From Paracoccaceae bacterium (GTDB lineage: Bacteria; Pseudomonadota; Alphaproteobacteria; Rhodobacterales; Rhodobacteraceae), in the NCBI GenBank assembly GCA_902631295.1, contig CACOXV010000020.1, forward strand, positions 1 to 32,026: a stretch of 32,026 nucleotides of DNA, written 5' to 3'. Each line of letters starts with the position of its first letter. Position 1 is the stretch's first letter. Position numbers and translations under genes: made by a program. This document shows, in pieces, positions 89-7,663 of the stretch. The notes under the pieces were generated by a model, which was given only the letters and a program-made list of their open reading frames with translations, made no database searches and was not told the origin of the DNA.

Positions 89-1771
89 TCATACCTCATC
101 GGAGAAATGCCGTAATGTAAGCTTTATAGGGTTTGAAGCAGCTTGGCCTAACCCACAAATTGAAGCATCTCCCATTGCAGTACAAATGTCTGTTAGCAGC
201 TCTGCGTCCCACTTTGGCTGCTCAAGCAGTTTGACCGCTTTCTCACACCCTACTCTACATGGCGTGCACTGCCCACAGCTCTCATCTTCAAAAAACTTGA
301 GCATATTTAATGCGGCATCTCGCGGCTTGTCCACTTGAGATAAAATAACCACCGCGGCGGACCCAATGAATGTATCCAGTGACTGAAGGGTATCAAAGTC
401 CATTGGAACATCATTAATAGATGCAGGCAACAGACCCGACGACGGGCCACCAGGCTGATACGCTTTGAAGGTATGACCATCTAACATACCGCCGCACGCA
501 TCAATAATGTCCAAAATAGTGGAACCAGATGGCAAAAGATGCACACCGGGATTTTTTACTCTGCCGGAAACTGAATAGCTTCGCAAACCTATTCTTCCAT
601 TTTTTTTCGTTCCAGAAAATATCTCACCGCCCTCGCGGCATATTCGCGCTATCCAATGTAACGTTTCGACATTGTGCACAAGCGTGGGTCTACCAAATAT
701 TCCAACCTGCGCAACAAATGGAGGCCGATGCCGCGGAATACCACGTTTCCCCTCTATACTTTCGATCATTGCGCTCTCTTCGCCACAAATATAGGCGCCG
801 GCTCCGCGGCGAAGGTCAATGTAACCTTCTTTAACTATACCTGCATTCTCTAATTTTATGATTTCATCCTTTAAGATCTTAAGAACGGATGGATACTCAT
901 CCCGCATATAAATATATGCCTTTTCGGCTTCAACCGCCCAGGCTGCGATCAACATCCCTTCAAGAAATAAGTGAGGAGTACGTTCTAGATAATATCTATC
1001 CTTAAACGTCCCCGGCTCTCCCTCATCACCATTTACGGCGAGATATCTTGGGCCCTCGTTTGCTCTAACAAACTCCCATTTCTTTCCTGAAGGAAATCCC
1101 GCACCTCCAAGCCCACGAAGACCAGAACCTAAGATTTTAGTCTGCACTTCTTTCCAGTCACCTGATTTGCGAAGTAATTTCAAAGTCTCGTATCCACCAG
1201 AGGAGACATACTCTGAAAATCTTTCATAATCTGGGATAGTCGGGTGCACATGGTTGTTTTCAATTGCCTCTGTCACCTTTTCAACGGTAGCATTGTCGAT
1301 GTGAGCATGCCCTATCTCTAGTGCAGGAGCAGTATCGCAACGGCCCATACATGGAGCACGCAAAACCCGTACCTCAGATGGATCTAAGCCATCTTCTAAA
1401 TTTTTTTTCAGTGTGTCGGCACCAGCTATCATGCAAGATAAGCTATCACAAACACGAATTGTTAGTTTTGGAGGAGGTAATTGACCATCTCTTACAATAT
1501 CAAAATGAGCATAAAAAGATGCTACTTCATAAACTTCAGCCGATGACATTCTCATCTCCTCCGCCAAAGCGCGCATGTGCGCTGTACTTATACACCGAAA
1601 TTTATCTTGAATTAGATGCAAGTACTCAATCAGCATATCACGCTCAAGCCGTTTACCTACGAGAAGGTCTTTTACCTGAGCCCAAGCGACGTCGTCTAAA
1701 GGCCTACCTTTTGTATGAGCCCGGCCTTTGCCCTTAGCGGACTTCCATATCCCTGAATCAATTTTTCCCAT
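89..1771 (-). CDS. fdsB: Formate dehydrogenase beta subunit (NuoE-NuoF fusion, NADH/FMN-binding diaphorase)
   Basis: The 560-residue product fuses a thioredoxin-like NuoE domain with a NuoF domain. The NuoE part carries four [2Fe-2S] cysteines near residues 108, 113, 141 and 145. The NuoF part has the FMN/NADH glycine-rich stretch GSGLRGLGGAGFPSG (about 215-229), the GDEGEPGTFKDR motif, and a C-terminal [4Fe-4S] motif CGQCTPC (about 499-505) with a later cysteine in SICGLGQ. The subunit passes electrons from formate oxidation to NAD+ in the cytoplasm. I chose the ATG at 1771 (MGKIDSG) because family homology starts there. An in-frame ATG at 1840 would add 23 hydrophobic residues unlike the family. 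The LysR gene ends upstream and fdsA follows after 3 bp. A HoxF hydrogenase diaphorase is the main alternative, disfavoured by the downstream gene's start. Confidence 0.88.
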   Translation of the reverse strand: MGKIDSGIWKSAKGKGRAHTKGRPLDDVAWAQVKDLLVGKRLERDMLIEYLHLIQDKFRCISTAHMRALAEEMRMSSAEVYEVASFYAHFDIVRDGQLPPPKLTIRVCDSLSCMIAGADTLKKNLEDGLDPSEVRVLRAPCMGRCDTAPALEIGHAHIDNATVEKVTEAIENNHVHPTIPDYERFSEYVSSGGYETLKLLRKSGDWKEVQTKILGSGLRGLGGAGFPSGKKWEFVRANEGPRYLAVNGDEGEPGTFKDRYYLERTPHLFLEGMLIAAWAVEAEKAYIYMRDEYPSVLKILKDEIIKLENAGIVKEGYIDLRRGAGAYICGEESAMIESIEGKRGIPRHRPPFVAQVGIFGRPTLVHNVETLHWIARICREGGEIFSGTKKNGRIGLRSYSVSGRVKNPGVHLLPSGSTILDIIDACGGMLDGHTFKAYQPGGPSSGLLPASINDVPMDFDTLQSLDTFIGSAAVVILSQVDKPRDAALNMLKFFEDESCGQCTPCRVGCEKAVKLLEQPKWDAELLTDICTAMGDASICGLGQAASNPIKLTLRHFSDEV

Positions 1772-1858
1772 ATTTGGCCTACATATGTATACAAAACAAA
1801 AGTACAGATAATTTCGATAAATTCCAATACAAATAATCAAAGGTGCGATTTGAAATGA

Positions 1859-2737
1859 TTATAGCGCGGACTTAACAGCTTTTCGAAGAGCTTCAATCAT
1901 CGGTAGAACTGGGGATTGATCTTTAATGGAAAGACCAACTGAGTGGGTTAAAACGGGTCGGATCAAATCTAATTGTTTGGTGGACTTTAAATCCAAAAAT
2001 GTCTGCGCAACGCTTACAGGTGCAATTGTCGCAGCGTTGCCCGCGGCAACTTGAGCCAAAACAGCGGTAAAATCACTGGCTTCTGTGACGATACTAGGTA
2101 AGATTCCTAAATCTAAAAAGTGCCGATCTATTAGTTGGCGGTTTTTCATATTTTGAGTCAACAGACATAGTGGAATTTGCGCAACTTCTGCCCAAGTAAT
2201 TTGCTTCTCTTTAGAAATCGTAAGTGACTTAGGCGCAATGAAAACATATCTTTCTTCATAAAGTTTTACTGTTGTCTCTGGGTCACCATTATTGAAGTAA
2301 AGTATTCCGGCATCTAGTGAAAAATCATTTAGCTTAAGTACGATTTGGTGAGTGGACTCAGAATAAATCTCTATAGATAGATTAGGATGCTTTTCTCGAA
2401 GTTTTGCTGAAACACGTGCAGCAAACGGCATTGCCGTGGGTATTACTCCAAGCGACAATGTTCCATTTAGATCGTTTTTAAGGGAAGCGATCTCTTGCCT
2501 CATACCTTCCTCATCAGCCAAAAGCTTTCGCGCCCACTTCAGAACTACGTCACCCTCTTTAGTAAAACCCTGAAAGCTATTACCGCGACGAACTAAAGGG
2601 AGTTTGAAACGCTCCTCTAATTTTCTAATTCGGGTTGAAAAAGCAGGCTGCGAAATATTACAGTCCATTGCGGACCTTGAGAAATTTCTTGTCCTAGACA
2701 ACGACACCAACATTTGTAAATCTCGAAGTTCAGACAT
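1859..2737 (-). CDS. LysR-family transcriptional regulator, probable regulator of the formate dehydrogenase operon
   Basis: The 292-residue protein has the LysR layout. An N-terminal winged HTH (about residues 5-63, with SRSAMDCNISQPAFSTRIRK as the recognition region) is followed by a substrate-binding periplasmic-fold domain (about 90-290). The ATG at 2737 is preceded by AGGA at a good distance. It lies directly upstream of the formate dehydrogenase genes on the same strand. LysR genes commonly accompany fds operons, so control of that operon is inferred. The inducer is unknown. The 5' region contains two 12-bp perfect palindromes that could be operators. Confidence 0.85.
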   Translation of the reverse strand: MSELRDLQMLVSLSRTRNFSRSAMDCNISQPAFSTRIRKLEERFKLPLVRRGNSFQGFTKEGDVVLKWARKLLADEEGMRQEIASLKNDLNGTLSLGVIPTAMPFAARVSAKLREKHPNLSIEIYSESTHQIVLKLNDFSLDAGILYFNNGDPETTVKLYEERYVFIAPKSLTISKEKQITWAEVAQIPLCLLTQNMKNRQLIDRHFLDLGILPSIVTEASDFTAVLAQVAAGNAATIAPVSVAQTFLDLKSTKQLDLIRPVLTHSVGLSIKDQSPVLPMIEALRKAVKSAL

Positions 2738-2994: not shown

Positions 2995-3025
2995 AAAAAC
3001 TGCAGCTGAAACAGCTGCAGTTTTT
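2995..3025 (-). terminator. Strong hairpin terminator closing the puhC-pufLM-pufX-like operon
   Basis: A perfect 14-bp stem (2995-3008 pairing with 3012-3025, core CTGCAGCTG/CAGCTGCAG) closes a 3-nt loop. On the minus strand it ends in a T run extending past 2994. It lies 40 bp after the stop of the pufX-like gene and fits rho-independent termination of the reaction-centre transcript. The stem is A/T-flanked on both sides, so it could also act in the other direction. Confidence 0.88.
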
Positions 3026-3064
3026 ACTTTTTTGATAGACCAAGAGTTAAAGGCCGTAATATCT

Positions 3065-3280
3065 TTAATCTTTACTCGATACAAATGAGTCCGGGGTCGG
3101 GTCATCTGCAAGTTTTGACTCGGCAGGCAGAAATTCACCGAGCCACATGAGCGCAACTATAAATACTACTGGTACTCCAACTAGAGCCCCGGCGACTAAT
3201 GACCCTGAAAACATCTGTCCAAAAATTTGAGCAATTGACATTTCCCTGTCCCAAGACCCTTTCGTATTTCTACTATCCAT
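3065..3280 (-). CDS. Small single-TM protein following pufM, PufX-like
   Basis: This 71-residue protein has a charged N-terminus, one membrane segment (about residues 22-45, starting QIFGQMFSGSLVAGALVG) and a polar, acidic C-terminus. It sits directly after pufM, exactly where pufX lies in Rhodobacter-type puf operons. It shares PufX traits: an NT-containing polar N-terminus, Gly/Ala-rich small-residue packing in the first half of the helix, and an LP-E motif just after the helix (EFLPAESK versus MLPIQEN in PufX), then a Pro/Asp tail. PufX opens the LH1 ring for quinone exchange and helps dimerise the core complex. The ATG at 3280 is preceded at 6 nt by GAGGTG, which overlaps the pufM stop. 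A GTG at 3289 is the alternative. Overall identity to PufX is low, so this could be a novel core-complex subunit. Confidence 0.6.
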   Translation of the reverse strand: MDSRNTKGSWDREMSIAQIFGQMFSGSLVAGALVGVPVVFIVALMWLGEFLPAESKLADDPTPDSFVSSKD

Positions 3281-3290
3281 TTTGATCACC

Positions 3291-4214
3291 TCAATTCATT
3301 GGAGCATAGCCATGCAGCTGCGCCCAATAGTACCAATTATCTACTACAGTACCGGTAAGAAGTATTCCGATTCCTCCGGTAATTGTGGTTAGAACTGCAA
3401 ACCACCAAGCCCACCGATGTATACCCTCCATGGAAGCATTGAAGCCCATGGTCCACCGCCAGAACAAAGCAGCACGCTCGGATGCTGTACCACGATCAGC
3501 AATTTGCTCTAATTCTCTATCACCACCAAACCTTGAGACGGCTAAAATAGTCGCTCCGTGCATGGCAAACAATAATGCGGAGCCATAAAGGAACACAATG
3601 CTCAAGGCATGAAATGGATTGTAAAAAAGATTACCGTAGACTACGGAAAAATTCATTGTCCAATCAAGGTGACTAAAAATCCCGTATGGAACAGCCTCCG
3701 ACCAACTGCCCATTAGGACTGGTCGAATTAAACCAAGAACTAGAAAAAGCCATATTGCAGCGCCAAAAGCATAAAATACATGCTTACCCATTTTAAGCTG
3801 CCTTGCTAGTTCGTAAGATCTCAACCACCATGAAAGCACTGAAACAAGTAAAAAGAAACTAGCGATTAACCATAAACCACCTTCCTTCATAGGAGGCATA
3901 CTCAAACCGTATTCTTCAGCAGGTGGCTCCAAGGAGAAGTAAAATAGATCGCGTAGGAATATCGCTGGATTATAATCAGCCTGTGCCCAATAACTTGCGC
4001 CTACTATTACAAACCAAATCAAACCTGTAGCGAGACCAACCACCCCGAATGAACCAAGATAGATCGGACCAAGTTGAGCATTACCAAACCAACCTAACAA
4101 TTTCGAAAATCGAGCTGAATTTGTTCTATCATTAAGAGGCACACCCTCCTCTACCCCCATTTCTGGAGGTCCTTGAACCTGCACCTGCGTAAAAATATTC
4201 TGATACTCAACCAT
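3291..4214 (-). CDS. pufM: Photosynthetic reaction centre M subunit
   Basis: The 307-residue protein has five membrane helices and is clearly PufM throughout. It retains the special-pair ligand His202 (NPFH), the accessory bacteriochlorophyll ligand His182 (HLDW), the iron ligands His219, Glu234 and His266, plus Tyr210 and Trp252. With PufL it binds bacteriochlorophyll, bacteriopheophytin, quinones and non-haem iron for type II light-driven charge separation in the inner membrane. I chose the ATG at 4214 (MVEYQNIF) because it matches family starts and has GGGAGG 5 nt upstream. It overlaps the pufL stop by 8 bp, indicating translational coupling. Two positions look unusual against the Rhodobacter sphaeroides sequence I recall: Tyr193 where that species has His, and Ala203 where it has Gly. 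Confidence 0.97.
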
Positions 4215-5055
4215 TGACGCCTCCCTCAATATCTACCCACATAGGCAGATCTACATACCAAAACCACCATTCAGACCAAGCATCGAACCAAACCGTACCA
4301 GAGATGACGATACATATTGCGGACCAGATTACTGCGTTGAGCGCGAGCAATAGTCCAAGACGATGGATGCCTAGTGGCCCAATGGAGTAGCCTATAAAAT
4401 CACGAAAAAACGTATCTTCATGATCCGGTGAGCGCATTTCGTTACCCTTTTCTGGATTGGCTGCTGAAAGAATAAGCGAGCCGTGCAACGCCAATGCTAG
4501 TGTCGTTGTGAAAAATAAACTTACGGCGATCATATGAGCAGGATTATAGTGAAAATTGCCATATGCATAACCAACATTATTGACCCAATCAAGATGTGAC
4601 CAAATTCCATATGGAAAGCCATGGCCCCACGCACCCATTAAGACAGGGCGAATTACAACAAGCGTTGTGTAAGCCAAAATTGCAACTGCAAAAGCGACTG
4701 GGACATGTAAGCCCATACCAAGCTTTCTCGAGATTTCAACTTCACGTAAAGCCCATGAAATGAATGCACCGTGAGCACAGATTGTAATTAATTGCCAAAG
4801 CCCACCTTCTTTCAAGGGTGCAAAGCCCAGGCCAACTTCAAGTTCCGGGGGTTCAATTGAAATAAGCCATGGGTTCCAAGTATCACCAATAGCAGCGCCA
4901 TAAAAAATTAGAATAGTTCCAAGTAAAGCGAAAAAGGCAACCGAGAGCCCCCAGAAGCCCACATAAAACGGGCCAACCCAAAAGTCACAAAGATCGCCTC
5001 CTACTAAGGTACCTCCGCGAACTCGATATTTTTTTTCAAAAGATAAAAGAGCCAT
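4207..5055 (-). CDS. pufL: Photosynthetic reaction centre L subunit
   Basis: The 282-residue protein is the usual PufL length. Counting the initiator Met, it keeps His154 (HLDW, accessory BChl), His169 and His174 (special-pair hydrogen bond and ligand), His191 and His231 (iron), Glu105 (bacteriopheophytin contact) and the QB-site pair Glu213-Asp214 ([10 protein letters not shown]). All known cofactor positions are intact, so the protein should be functional. The ATG at 5055 has AAGGATAA upstream. A dedicated promoter with two PpsR-type boxes lies 110-175 bp upstream. Unlike classical puf operons, no pufB, pufA or pufQ precedes it; puhC does. Confidence 0.97.
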
Positions 5056-5167
5056 AAATTATCCTTCTCTTCCGTAGGTATACCTGTCTTACCAACATCC
5101 TCGTTTGAGCTTCCATTGAATTTTCAAATGAAAGCGCGTGAATCACAGGTAGATTCCTTCTGCTCTG

Positions 5168-5228
5168 AGGATAAAAAAAGAAATAAATATGTCAATTAAA
5201 ATTTACAGTGTGTAAGGTTATATTTACA
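5168..5228 (-). promoter_or_regulatory. pufL promoter with two tandem PpsR/CrtJ-type operators
   Basis: Two perfect TGT-N12-ACA palindromes lie at 5190-5207 and 5211-5228, 21 bp centre to centre, or about two helical turns. The box nearer pufL ends on the minus strand in TTGACA (5190-5195), a consensus -35 element. A TATCCT hexamer (5168-5173) follows after a 16-bp spacer as a possible -10. The TGT-N12-ACA consensus and paired-site arrangement are known for the redox/light repressor PpsR (CrtJ), and a box over the -35 fits repression. A perfect AGGTATACCT palindrome (5076-5085) sits in the leader before pufL. That PpsR acts here is inference, since no ppsR gene is in the window. Confidence 0.78.
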
Positions 5229-5669
5229 CTAACGTTCCAAGATGTCACGAAATACTAAAATATTATCTTCTCCAAAGCCCATCAAATCTAATTCTTTTTC
5301 AGACGATGGGTCAAAAATACTCAAACGGCCATTCTCTTTTTGTTGTAATATTAGAGGGCCAGATTTATCTAAGTTCTTTTTAAGCCGGTCTCTGTTTATA
5401 ACAGTCAACACAGTGGAAACAAATGATTGCTCGCCTTGTGGATGCTCTACTAAGATAGCACCATTTTCATTTAAAATTTTAGTCGCCAAATCATCACTTT
5501 GTTCAATATAAATAAGTTTACTGCTAATAATACTGCTATTGGGCGACACGTTTACTGGCTCAAAATTGAAAATTTGAAATCCAAGTACAAATAAAATCGA
5601 TGCAACCATCGCACCAGGAACCAGCCACTGGGGCTTAAGAGACCTAATAATATTGCGAACATGAAACAA
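5229..5669 (-). CDS. puhC: Photosynthetic complex assembly protein PuhC
   Basis: The 146-residue protein has a short basic N-terminus, one membrane helix (about residues 16-34) and a periplasmic domain ending in the PuhC pattern: R.R.KK..GP..L..-ENGRLSIFDPSS-KELDLMGFG-DN. PuhC assists assembly of the reaction centre and LH1 core complex. In most purple bacteria it lies with puhA and puhB; here it stands alone upstream of pufL. No ATG is available in this frame. The first usable start is TTG at 5669 with GGGATAG upstream, and a stop lies 9 codons further up. The stop at 5229 directly abuts the second PpsR-type box, so pufL can be driven both from its own promoter and by readthrough from puhC. 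Confidence 0.85.
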   Translation of the reverse strand: MFHVRNIIRSLKPQWLVPGAMVASILFVLGFQIFNFEPVNVSPNSSIISSKLIYIEQSDDLATKILNENGAILVEHPQGEQSFVSTVLTVINRDRLKKNLDKSGPLILQQKENGRLSIFDPSSEKELDLMGFGEDNILVFRDILER

Positions 5670-6058: not shown

Positions 6059-6553
6059 ATGTTCAACAAAATGTCAAAAAGAGAATTTATCGCAGCATCT
6101 GCGGCATTAACTGGCTCATTACTTATGTCAAAAACAGCAATGGGATCTACCAAATATGAAATTCTAATGCTTAATAAAGATCCCGACAACTCTAAAAACA
6201 AGATGATTTTTTCACCACGTTTATTGAAAGTGCAGGTAGGTGATGAAGTAAGCTTTTTACCAACTGACAAAGGTCATAATAGCGAAATAATTAAGGGAAT
6301 GTTACCTGACGGTGCTGAAAAGTGGAAGGGTAAGATCAACAAGCAAGTTGATGTCGTTTTTGATACTCCAGGTTTTTACGGTTATCAATGCAAACCCCAC
6401 GCAAATATGGGCATGATTGGTCTTATTGTCGTCGAAGGTGATGGGATGCTCGATAATCTTGATGAAGCCAGATCTGTAAAACATAGAGGGAAAGCCAAAA
6501 AGGCTTGGAAAGCTTTGTGGGAAGAAGCAGACGCCGCGGGTTTTACAGCTTGA
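6059..6553 (+). CDS. Pseudoazurin (type 1 copper electron carrier)
   Basis: The 164-residue precursor has an N-terminal export signal (about residues 1-29; MSKREFIAASAALTG resembles a Tat signal but with KR instead of RR). A cupredoxin domain follows. The type 1 copper ligands fit His73 (KGHNSE), Cys111 and His114 (YQCKPH) and Met119 (MGMIGLI), the CxxHxxxxM spacing of pseudoazurins. A helical C-terminal segment, also typical, ends the protein. The mature protein would be a soluble periplasmic one-electron carrier, for example to nitrite reductase, oxidase or possibly the photosynthetic reaction centre. The ATG at 6059 has GGAG at 6 nt. The gene is divergent from puhC-pufLM. A hairpin terminator follows at 6634-6659. 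A role as electron donor to the adjacent reaction centre is speculation. Confidence 0.92.
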   Translation: MFNKMSKREFIAASAALTGSLLMSKTAMGSTKYEILMLNKDPDNSKNKMIFSPRLLKVQVGDEVSFLPTDKGHNSEIIKGMLPDGAEKWKGKINKQVDVVFDTPGFYGYQCKPHANMGMIGLIVVEGDGMLDNLDEARSVKHRGKAKKAWKALWEEADAAGFTA

Positions 6554-6895: not shown

Positions 6896-7663
6896 ATGTT
6901 ACCAATACGGGATCATAATCCATCCGGGAGGACACCCTACGTTACCTATTCGATAATTTCTATTAACTGCATTATTTTTTTTAGCTATTGGGGAAATATA
7001 GACGACCCTCAAATTATAAACGAATTTTTTTCATCATGGGCTCTAATCCCATATAATCTTACTCAAGGCGAAGATTTATTCACTCCAATAACATCAATTT
7101 TTCTACATGCCGGCATACTACACCTCGCTGGAAACATGTTATTTTTGCATATTTTTGGTGATAACCTCGAAGATCAAATGGGGCACCTTGGCTTCCTAGT
7201 TTTTTATTTATTAAGTGGGATTGGAGCTAGTATTATTTACTACCTAACCGCACCTCTTTCACCAATACCACTTGTCGGGGCGTCAGGAGCAATAGCTGGC
7301 GTGATGGGAGGGTATCTTCTTTTATACCCCAAGGCACGCGTAGATGTACTTTTCTTTATATTAATATTTTTTAAAATTTTTTCTTTGCGAGCGTGGCTAG
7401 TTCTGGGCGTGTGGTTTTTCCTACAGTTGGCAAATGGAACTATGTTAATGTCAGGTCAAAGCGGTGTCGCTTATTGGGCGCATATTGGCGGGTTTATTGT
7501 TGGAAGTATTCTTTGCTTGCCAACTTTTTTAAAATTAGGTGGTTTTAAGTTCTGGATAGATAGTAGTGGCCACCCACCCTATCCTGAAGGTGATTATGAA
7601 ATGGTTAAGTCCGCAATTCCAAAGGTAAAGTCACGTCTAAGCAAAAAATCACCCTGGACCTGA
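6896..7663 (+). CDS. Rhomboid-family intramembrane serine protease
   Basis: The 255-residue protein has about six membrane segments and the rhomboid catalytic signature: Ser130 in GASGAIAG and His196 in AHIGGF, with HLAGNMLFLHIFGDNLED (about 76-93) forming the conserved segment after the L1 loop. It would cleave transmembrane segments of unidentified substrates in the inner membrane. A polar C-terminal tail (about 213-255) follows the last helix. The gene ends 1 bp before the convergent suhB stop. The ATG at 6896 fits family starts (LPIRDHNPS is typical). Confidence 0.93.
   Translation: MLPIRDHNPSGRTPYVTYSIISINCIIFFSYWGNIDDPQIINEFFSSWALIPYNLTQGEDLFTPITSIFLHAGILHLAGNMLFLHIFGDNLEDQMGHLGFLVFYLLSGIGASIIYYLTAPLSPIPLVGASGAIAGVMGGYLLLYPKARVDVLFFILIFFKIFSLRAWLVLGVWFFLQLANGTMLMSGQSGVAYWAHIGGFIVGSILCLPTFLKLGGFKFWIDSSGHPPYPEGDYEMVKSAIPKVKSRLSKKSPWT

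Follow-up and report, generated by a model that had tools for sequence, protein, structure and literature searches.

Why should the genes for the core of a photosynthetic reaction centre stand apart from the antenna genes that usually precede them? Contig CACOXV010000020.1 of Paracoccaceae bacterium (assembly GCA_902631295.1) poses this question. The whole contig, C20 in our numbering, was analysed as a window of 32,026 bases; the genome to which it belongs comprises 67 contigs and 1,958,576 bases in all, and is 70.48% complete and 0.06% contaminated. A sequence-only reading of the window saw a puhC-pufL-pufM-pufX operon without antenna genes at positions 2995-5669, and took it for part of either a split photosynthesis gene cluster or an antenna-free reaction centre. 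As we discuss below, the cluster is split, and a cassette comprising pseudoazurin and puhC-pufLMX genes was very probably acquired horizontally and displaced the organism's own PufC-type reaction centre. On this account the split arises from replacement of a native reaction centre by a foreign one with a pseudoazurin gene beside it, an explanation that is beyond the reach of the window sequence alone.

Profile matches and tblastn searches bore out the gene content of the segment, which lies entirely on the reverse strand. A second, diverged copy of puhC, encoding an assembly factor, heads the cassette (5229-5669; TIGR03054, 83.6 bits against a cut-off of 55; start uncertain, TTG). It is followed by pufL (4207-5055; TIGR01157, 427 bits) and pufM (3291-4214; TIGR01115, 520 bits), which the PufLM tree described below assigns to a foreign reaction centre of the PufX type, and by pufX directly 3' of pufM (3065-3280, with an ATG at 3280; PF11511, 29.2 bits against a cut-off of 25). 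At what we take to be the position numbers of the cofactor and QB-site residues, all 15 residues checked agree with the reference chains (8/8 pigment, iron, and quinone residues in PufL and 7/7 in PufM), so the cofactor residues are intact as claimed, and the clean terminator noted after pufX is a 14-pair stem at 2995-3025 (reverse strand) with a T-rich tail on either strand. Divergent from puhC, a forward-strand gene (6059-6553; TIGR02375, 133.7 bits against a cut-off of 109.85) encodes pseudoazurin, a blue copper protein; in an alignment to 3tu6 judged by eye, its His, Cys, His, Met type 1 copper motif is kept.

Antenna genes are missing from the window. Tblastn searches with 44 proteins, a set from which crtA, crtC, bchG, bchP, and ppsR were left out, found none of pufB, pufA, pufQ, pufC, puhA, puhB, puhE, acsF, or 22 bch, crt, and other cluster genes in the window, where the only matches were weak (E at least 0.03). 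The 173-bp gap 5' of pufL contains no antenna gene, and the LHC family exceeds its cut-off genome-wide only on another contig, C3. Thus no tiny pufBA pair was overlooked near the operon, a possibility that the sequence-only reading had raised against itself. An organism devoid of light-harvesting complex 1 (LH1) and using an antenna-free reaction centre would explain the absence of antenna genes from the window, but pufB and pufA both score above cut-off on C3 of the same genome (with three weaker matches below it) and carry the NCBIfam names LH1 beta and LH1 alpha. We reject this explanation, to which we assign practically no probability.

Contig C3 (110,311 bases) carries the rest of the photosynthesis gene cluster. 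It begins with dxs, pufA, pufB, pufQ, bchZ, bchY, bchX, bchC, crtF, crtE, crtD, crtC, tspO, crtB, crtI, and a crtA-like gene, continues with bchI, bchD, bchO, a c-type cytochrome gene, hemA, puhE, acsF, puhC, puhB, puhA, lhaA, bchM, bchL, and bchH, and ends with bchB, bchN, bchF, and ppaA, followed by a ppsR-like gene, bchG, and bchP. Most of these genes were named by reading their translations, pufA, pufB, and pufQ by profile scan, and puhC by profile match. The proposed genome-wide search for puf, puh, bch, crt, and ppsR genes therefore ends on C3 and establishes a split cluster. The claim that only puhC is attached to the reaction-centre genes stands in that puhC is present, but the window copy is the second one, distinct from the ordinary puhC within puhABC on C3. 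Because pufBA sits in an otherwise complete cluster, the antenna is present and only pufLM has gone from its usual place before dxs; where a PufX-type organism normally has pufQBALMX ahead of dxs, this one has pufQBA-dxs on C3 and LMX on C20. Everything that remains of the cluster, antenna genes included, is in its ordinary place, and only LM(C) is missing. PufC has no match in this genome, which is 70% complete. In tetranucleotide composition C20 correlates at 0.979 with part of C3, a test of low power because a congener contig gives 0.974.

Related genomes reveal what the usual place once held. We sampled 16 genomes of the genus (numbered G000, the window's, to G015), with matches to PufL/M in 11, to LHC in 10, and to PuhC in 12. 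Two of them, G002 (96% complete) and G003 (95%), show the ordinary order pufQ-B-A-L-M-C-dxs, with no pufX detectable in these operons by tblastn. The other nine genomes with LM (G000, G004, G006, G008, G009, G010, G012, G013, and G015) are split, with puhC-pufLM and no adjoining pufBA. In all nine, a divergent pseudoazurin gene lies upstream of the cassette; the pseudoazurin-puhC spacer of G013 is about 1.1 kb long and contains another open reading frame (ORF). The junction between pufA and dxs is assembled in nine genomes of the genus, and in seven of these (G000, G005, G006, G007, G008, G012, and G013) dxs follows pufA directly, without LM, the remaining two being G002 and G003. Five genomes have no LM match: G005 and G007, which show the pufA-dxs gap; G001, whose contig stops inside pufA; G014, in which a pseudoazurin gene lies at the edge of a contig; and G011 (58% complete), in which LHC, PuhC, and pseudoazurin also have no match. 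PufC occurs in 2/16 genomes, the two canonical ones, and pseudoazurin exceeds its cut-off in 10/16, neither canonical genome among them (G001 has one match below cut-off). Compared with G002 and G003, the window's genome is 73-76% identical in PufL/M, 85% and 93% identical in bchZ, and 100% and 98% identical in PufA.

Did the organism's own reaction-centre genes simply move? Translocation of pufLMX out of the puf operon, with no foreign gene involved, would account for G000, G008, and G012, each of which shows a single puf set in two pieces. Trees of concatenated PufL and PufM (102 rows) reject it. Eleven solo cassettes from three lineages (the genus, G214, and G016), together with G020, a PufX type in canonical position, form one clade (100/99), but PufLM of G002 and G003 falls inside the PufC clade (100/100), and constraining PufLM of the genus to a single clade is rejected (p = 6.7e-61). 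The canonical operons, moreover, contain pufC and no pufX. Unless the G002 and G003 operons are themselves imports, the tree rules out translocation, which we consider very improbable. The bchZ tree (94 rows), by contrast, places the genus and G196, itself a PufC type, in one clade (99/99). Because bchZ unites the genus while PufLM divides it, the cluster belongs to a PufC-type lineage, unlike the reaction centre; the trees show that the window's PufLM is foreign to the photosynthesis gene cluster of its host. Of the 102 PufLM rows, 70 are loci picked as best matches to the window's PufM, and with rows so biased the placement of the cassette within the PufX types may move with more sampling. 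In this tree an X label means the lack of a pufC match, not a pufX match in each row; the PufM-only rows G013_C29, L088, L091, and L114 and the long-branched G079_C3 were omitted, and L075 and L131 were removed as duplicates of G020 and G079.

PuhC points the same way. Twelve rows of cassette PuhC and seven of ordinary PuhC are parted by one branch (89/91), in a tree with some long branches, and PuhC therefore probably travelled together with LMX. Between the two subgroups of the genus, A and B, cassette PufLM have diverged by 0.21 and native PufLM by 0.11, whereas bchZ for the matching pairs gives 0.30 and 0.26; the cassette was either gained twice or evolved faster.

Alignments of the empty place between pufA and dxs to the canonical operon of G003 show that the native pufLMC genes were deleted where they stood, leaving a scar. 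In G000 and G012, the pufA-pufL spacer and the first native pufL codons are retained (17 to 31 bases in global alignments, more in local ones), and the local alignments restart within about 60 bases after the pufC stop; the global aligner scatters a few bases between. In the five subgroup-B genomes the main match stops about 50 bases before the pufL start. Two of them, G005 and G008, have a further 18-23 matching bases over that start; in G007 the alignment runs through an altered pufL start codon and restarts 57 bases after pufC.

The insertion site in subgroup A can also be read. There, livK and a rhomboid gene flank an island of fdhA, fdhB, lysR, pufX-M-L-puhC, and the pseudoazurin gene, which is complete in G010, G012, and G015, whereas in G001 and G003 livK and the rhomboid gene are adjacent, as expected of an empty site. 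In the window the right-hand border is a rhomboid-like protease gene, named by reading (6896-7663, forward strand), which adjoins livK in the island-free relatives; the lysR gene of the island (1859-2737, reverse strand; PF03466/PF00126) is missing from the livK-rhomboid junction of G001 and G003. The contig of the window stops inside the island, at a gene for a NuoE/NuoF-like subunit of a putative NAD-dependent formate dehydrogenase (89-1840, reverse strand), adjoined by a molybdopterin subunit gene in G010, G012, and G015. These putative formate dehydrogenase genes thus share the subgroup-A island with the cassette (L158, 3430-7965). Subgroup-B cassettes have different neighbours, and in these genomes the rhomboid locus is cassette-free.

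Could the history have run in reverse? The native LMC might have been lost once in the ancestor of the genus, or the PufX type might be old, with G002 and G003 later regaining pufLMC, placed within the puf operon, from a PufC-type relative. Both subgroups do have the cassette, the two scars occupy similar places, PufLM of G002 lies equally near to genomes outside the genus (path lengths of 0.088 to G196 and 0.12 to G136) and to G003 (0.11), and the canonical-position PufX type G020 has a bchZ 87% identical to that of the window's genome. Yet the scars keep traces of a pufL start in canonical position and restart behind pufC, which suggests that the operon there was originally of the PufC type. 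In addition, G196 of the same bchZ clade is a PufC type, no cassette occupies the subgroup-A site in G001 or G003, and two regains would be needed. We regard this reverse history as improbable. In the bchZ tree G003 and G001 group with G000 and G012 (99/96), and a single clade of split genomes is rejected (p = 1.35e-4), which leaves either two losses or one loss followed by regain of pufLMC in both G002 and G003. As canonical genomes occur in both subgroups, two losses of native pufLMC within the genus are likely unless pufLMC was regained.

Assembly or binning error deserves separate mention, since the sequence-only reading named a chimeric assembly as a finding that would overturn it. The window is one contig of a fragmented genome, and pufLMX contigs of another organism might have entered the bin. 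In G006 this may have happened: its two cassettes (L160 and L161, contigs C76 and C44), one per subgroup type, are on short contigs, and the C76 copy is nearly identical to that of G004 and probably a stray contig foreign to the bin. For the genus at large, however, the same arrangement recurs in AG-390-B07 (G010), AG-390-A18 (G009), and AG-359-N23 (G008), whose AG- names we take to denote genomes amplified from single cells, as well as in several further genomes, metagenome-assembled ones among them. The cassette also lies deep inside long contigs, and the seven LM-free pufA-dxs junctions are themselves assembled. In AG-359-N23, pufQBA-dxs is 105 kb into a contig of 134,895 bases and the cassette is 91 kb into one of 104,256 bases. 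An artefact is thus extremely improbable.

Arrangements related to INTERMEDIATES occur outside the genus. G214 (98% complete), which belongs to a different genus of the same family, combines a canonical cluster on contig C67 (L205), with pufLMC and puhABC, and a solo puhC-pufLM-pufX on contig C99 (L206), with a PufX score of 42.7 bits; unless a contig is stray, PufC and PufX types co-occur in this genome. Its cassette (L238, 15214-19857) adjoins the far end of an operon whose orthologue is the liv operon beside the subgroup-A site, an adjacency that may hint at transfer by recombination there or may be coincidental. G016 has puhB-puhC-pufQ-pufLMX on one contig (L074, 3412-7176), the puhB and pufQ of this cassette being second copies, and pufQBA-dxs without LM on another. 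In the examined part of its cluster, which includes the ordinary puh operon (L243), no other puhC was found by hidden Markov model profile. L243 also encodes, between puhB and acsF and before the latter, a small conserved protein (about 97 residues) that recurs in G012. Other unusual layouts were seen in the small genome G054, whose rearranged cluster has pufBALMX, with a pseudoazurin gene directly after it, inserted between bchX and bchY (L211, contig C27, 2710-6222); in G079, with a second, divergent pufLMC and puhA/puhB-like genes (L208, contig C3 of that genome, 3437-8304) besides pufLMX in canonical position; and in G103, with a pseudoazurin gene just behind dxs, by a PufC-type operon (L237, contig C25, about 4819-5145).

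As to how the cassette moved, none of the neighbouring ORFs appears by reading to be a mobile gene and the window contains no tRNA gene, mobile-element families being outside these searches. A phage collection yielded no relative of PufM and viral contigs yielded no match to the gene pattern. Eleven plasmid records have PufM relatives, at 62-77% identity, below the 82-99% found among members of the cassette clade. On the strength of these collections we rejected phage, viral, or plasmid carriage of the cassette lineage.

Multiple results bear on function. First, the ratio of non-synonymous to synonymous substitution (dN/dS) in six close pairs is at most 0.045 for pufL/pufM, 0.03-0.07 for pseudoazurin, 0.05-0.14 for pufX, and 0.13-0.20 for puhC (one puhC pair was saturated); the window's pufX gives 0.05-0.08 against four close relatives. 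These low values, which denote strong purifying selection, argue that the cassette is in use. Second, at what we take to be the donor-side positions M88 and L257, the cassette has acidic residues, D and D, as in PufX types; the corresponding residues in the six native PufC types shown are Q and K or A. Third, with PufC gone, a soluble donor should serve the reaction centre. Pseudoazurin is a candidate for this role, favoured by its linkage to the cassette in 9/9 congeners, its absence from the two PufC congeners, the purifying selection on it, and the pufBALMX-pseudoazurin order in G054. Among the best 80 loci matching the window's PufM, pseudoazurin lies within the fetched flanks only in L070-L073, all from the genus. 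The spacer between pseudoazurin and puhC has no PpsR (TGT-N12-ACA) or FNR-like site in any of 10 loci. That pseudoazurin is a real electron donor is a tentative proposal, to which we give somewhat less than an even chance.

We suggest the following sequence of events and resulting complex. The probable order is that the cassette was gained, that a phase with both reaction centres followed, and that the native reaction centre was then lost. The native LH1 ring (PufBA) and H subunit (PuhA) would assemble around foreign L, M, and PufX, with the cassette's own PuhC helping to build this chimeric core. With the bound tetrahaem cytochrome PufC lost, re-reduction would come from the periplasm through a soluble carrier, which would be a c-type cytochrome or the pseudoazurin linked to the cassette. 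PufA is 98-100% identical between canonical and split congeners, and the ring thus seems to tolerate reaction centres of both the PufC and the PufX type.

Several observations weigh against displacement by an acquired cassette or against a donor role for its pseudoazurin. Most of the genomes compared are incomplete, and none in the genus sample contains both reaction centres together. The scars differ in their pufL remnant and are similar in place, and so do not by themselves prove two deletions. In G013 (L164, contig C29, 7084-8011) pufL is split into two overlapping frames, through sequencing error or decay. A c-type cytochrome gene is kept in the cluster (L010, 1993-2412, named by reading), so pseudoazurin may be optional or may serve something else. 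Pseudoazurin is also common in the family (50/248 over cut-off), the cassettes of G214 and G016 have none adjoining, and in G103 one occurs near a PufC-type operon.

Acquisition of the cassette with displacement of the native reaction centre remains the reading that we prefer. A bolder version holds that L, M, PufX, their own PuhC, and their own copper donor form a self-contained transferable module that moves among Rhodobacterales and displaced the native reaction centre perhaps twice in one genus, while the antenna stayed and four haem irons per reaction centre were swapped for one copper. We consider this unlikely as a whole; if it were true, exchanging haem iron for copper could pay in iron-poor surface water. 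The findings matter in several further ways. The usual view treats antenna, H subunit, and reaction-centre core as a single co-evolving unit, and here the core appears to have been exchanged alone. One genus displays both the canonical state and the replaced state with its scar, and other lineages (G214 and G016) look like intermediates, which makes replacement of PufC by PufX directly testable. A blue copper protein is put forward as a candidate donor in purple bacteria. Finally, surveys that read PufM as a marker of host lineage would misplace such organisms.

How does this locus compare with known systems? Among the literature matches listed, which did not extend to subscription journals and supplements, we recognised no description of the relocated cassette, its scars, or its pseudoazurin; the comparisons that follow draw on excerpts of the papers cited. 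In Chloroflexus, the blue copper protein auracyanin has been proposed as a carrier to the reaction centre (PMC3150298), but that is another phylum and another cupredoxin, and linkage alone suggests the role of the window's pseudoazurin. The photosynthesis gene cluster of Rhodovulum sulfidophilum is likewise split, into two segments about 300 kb apart (PMC3738892), but its pufQBALMC is whole, whereas the cut here falls inside the puf operon. Both types have been reported in one genus by transfer, but in the published case whole clusters moved, whereas here the reaction centre alone was apparently exchanged and the antenna stayed. Seven COR-cluster roseobacter genomes contain both pufLMX and pufLMC according to a figure legend (PMC12661815, 2025), and HIMB11 of this cluster has pufQBALMC (PMC4148974). 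These bacteria possibly belong to the same marine group as the window's genus, and the low G+C content of the stretches fetched from the genus (38.6-42.8%) suggests a place in or near subclusters COR-1/COR-2; the main text of PMC12661815 has no match for pseudoazurin or puhC, and the excerpt contains nothing on location, missing pufBA linkage, or scars. Citromicrobium sp. JL354 has a second, incomplete pufLMC-puhCBA cluster in an integrative conjugative element, in which antenna-free extra reaction-centre genes are joined to puh genes and are thought to have been gained by transfer (PMC3338782). That set is of the PufC type, includes puhABC, and adds to a complete cluster, whereas the window's set is of the PufX type, has only puhC (no pufC, puhA, or puhB), and lies beside pseudoazurin in an organism whose native reaction centre is gone. 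Finally, Brinkmann et al. (2018; PMC6052148) describe a single replacement of pufC by pufX in Rhodobacteraceae, with pufX taking exactly the position of pufC between pufM and dxs. There as here, the bound cytochrome subunit was lost and PufX gained, but in the genus studied here the PufX type occupies ectopic loci, L and M are xenologous, and the native operon carries a deletion scar. The replacement of PufC by PufX is thus of a known kind, reached by a new route.

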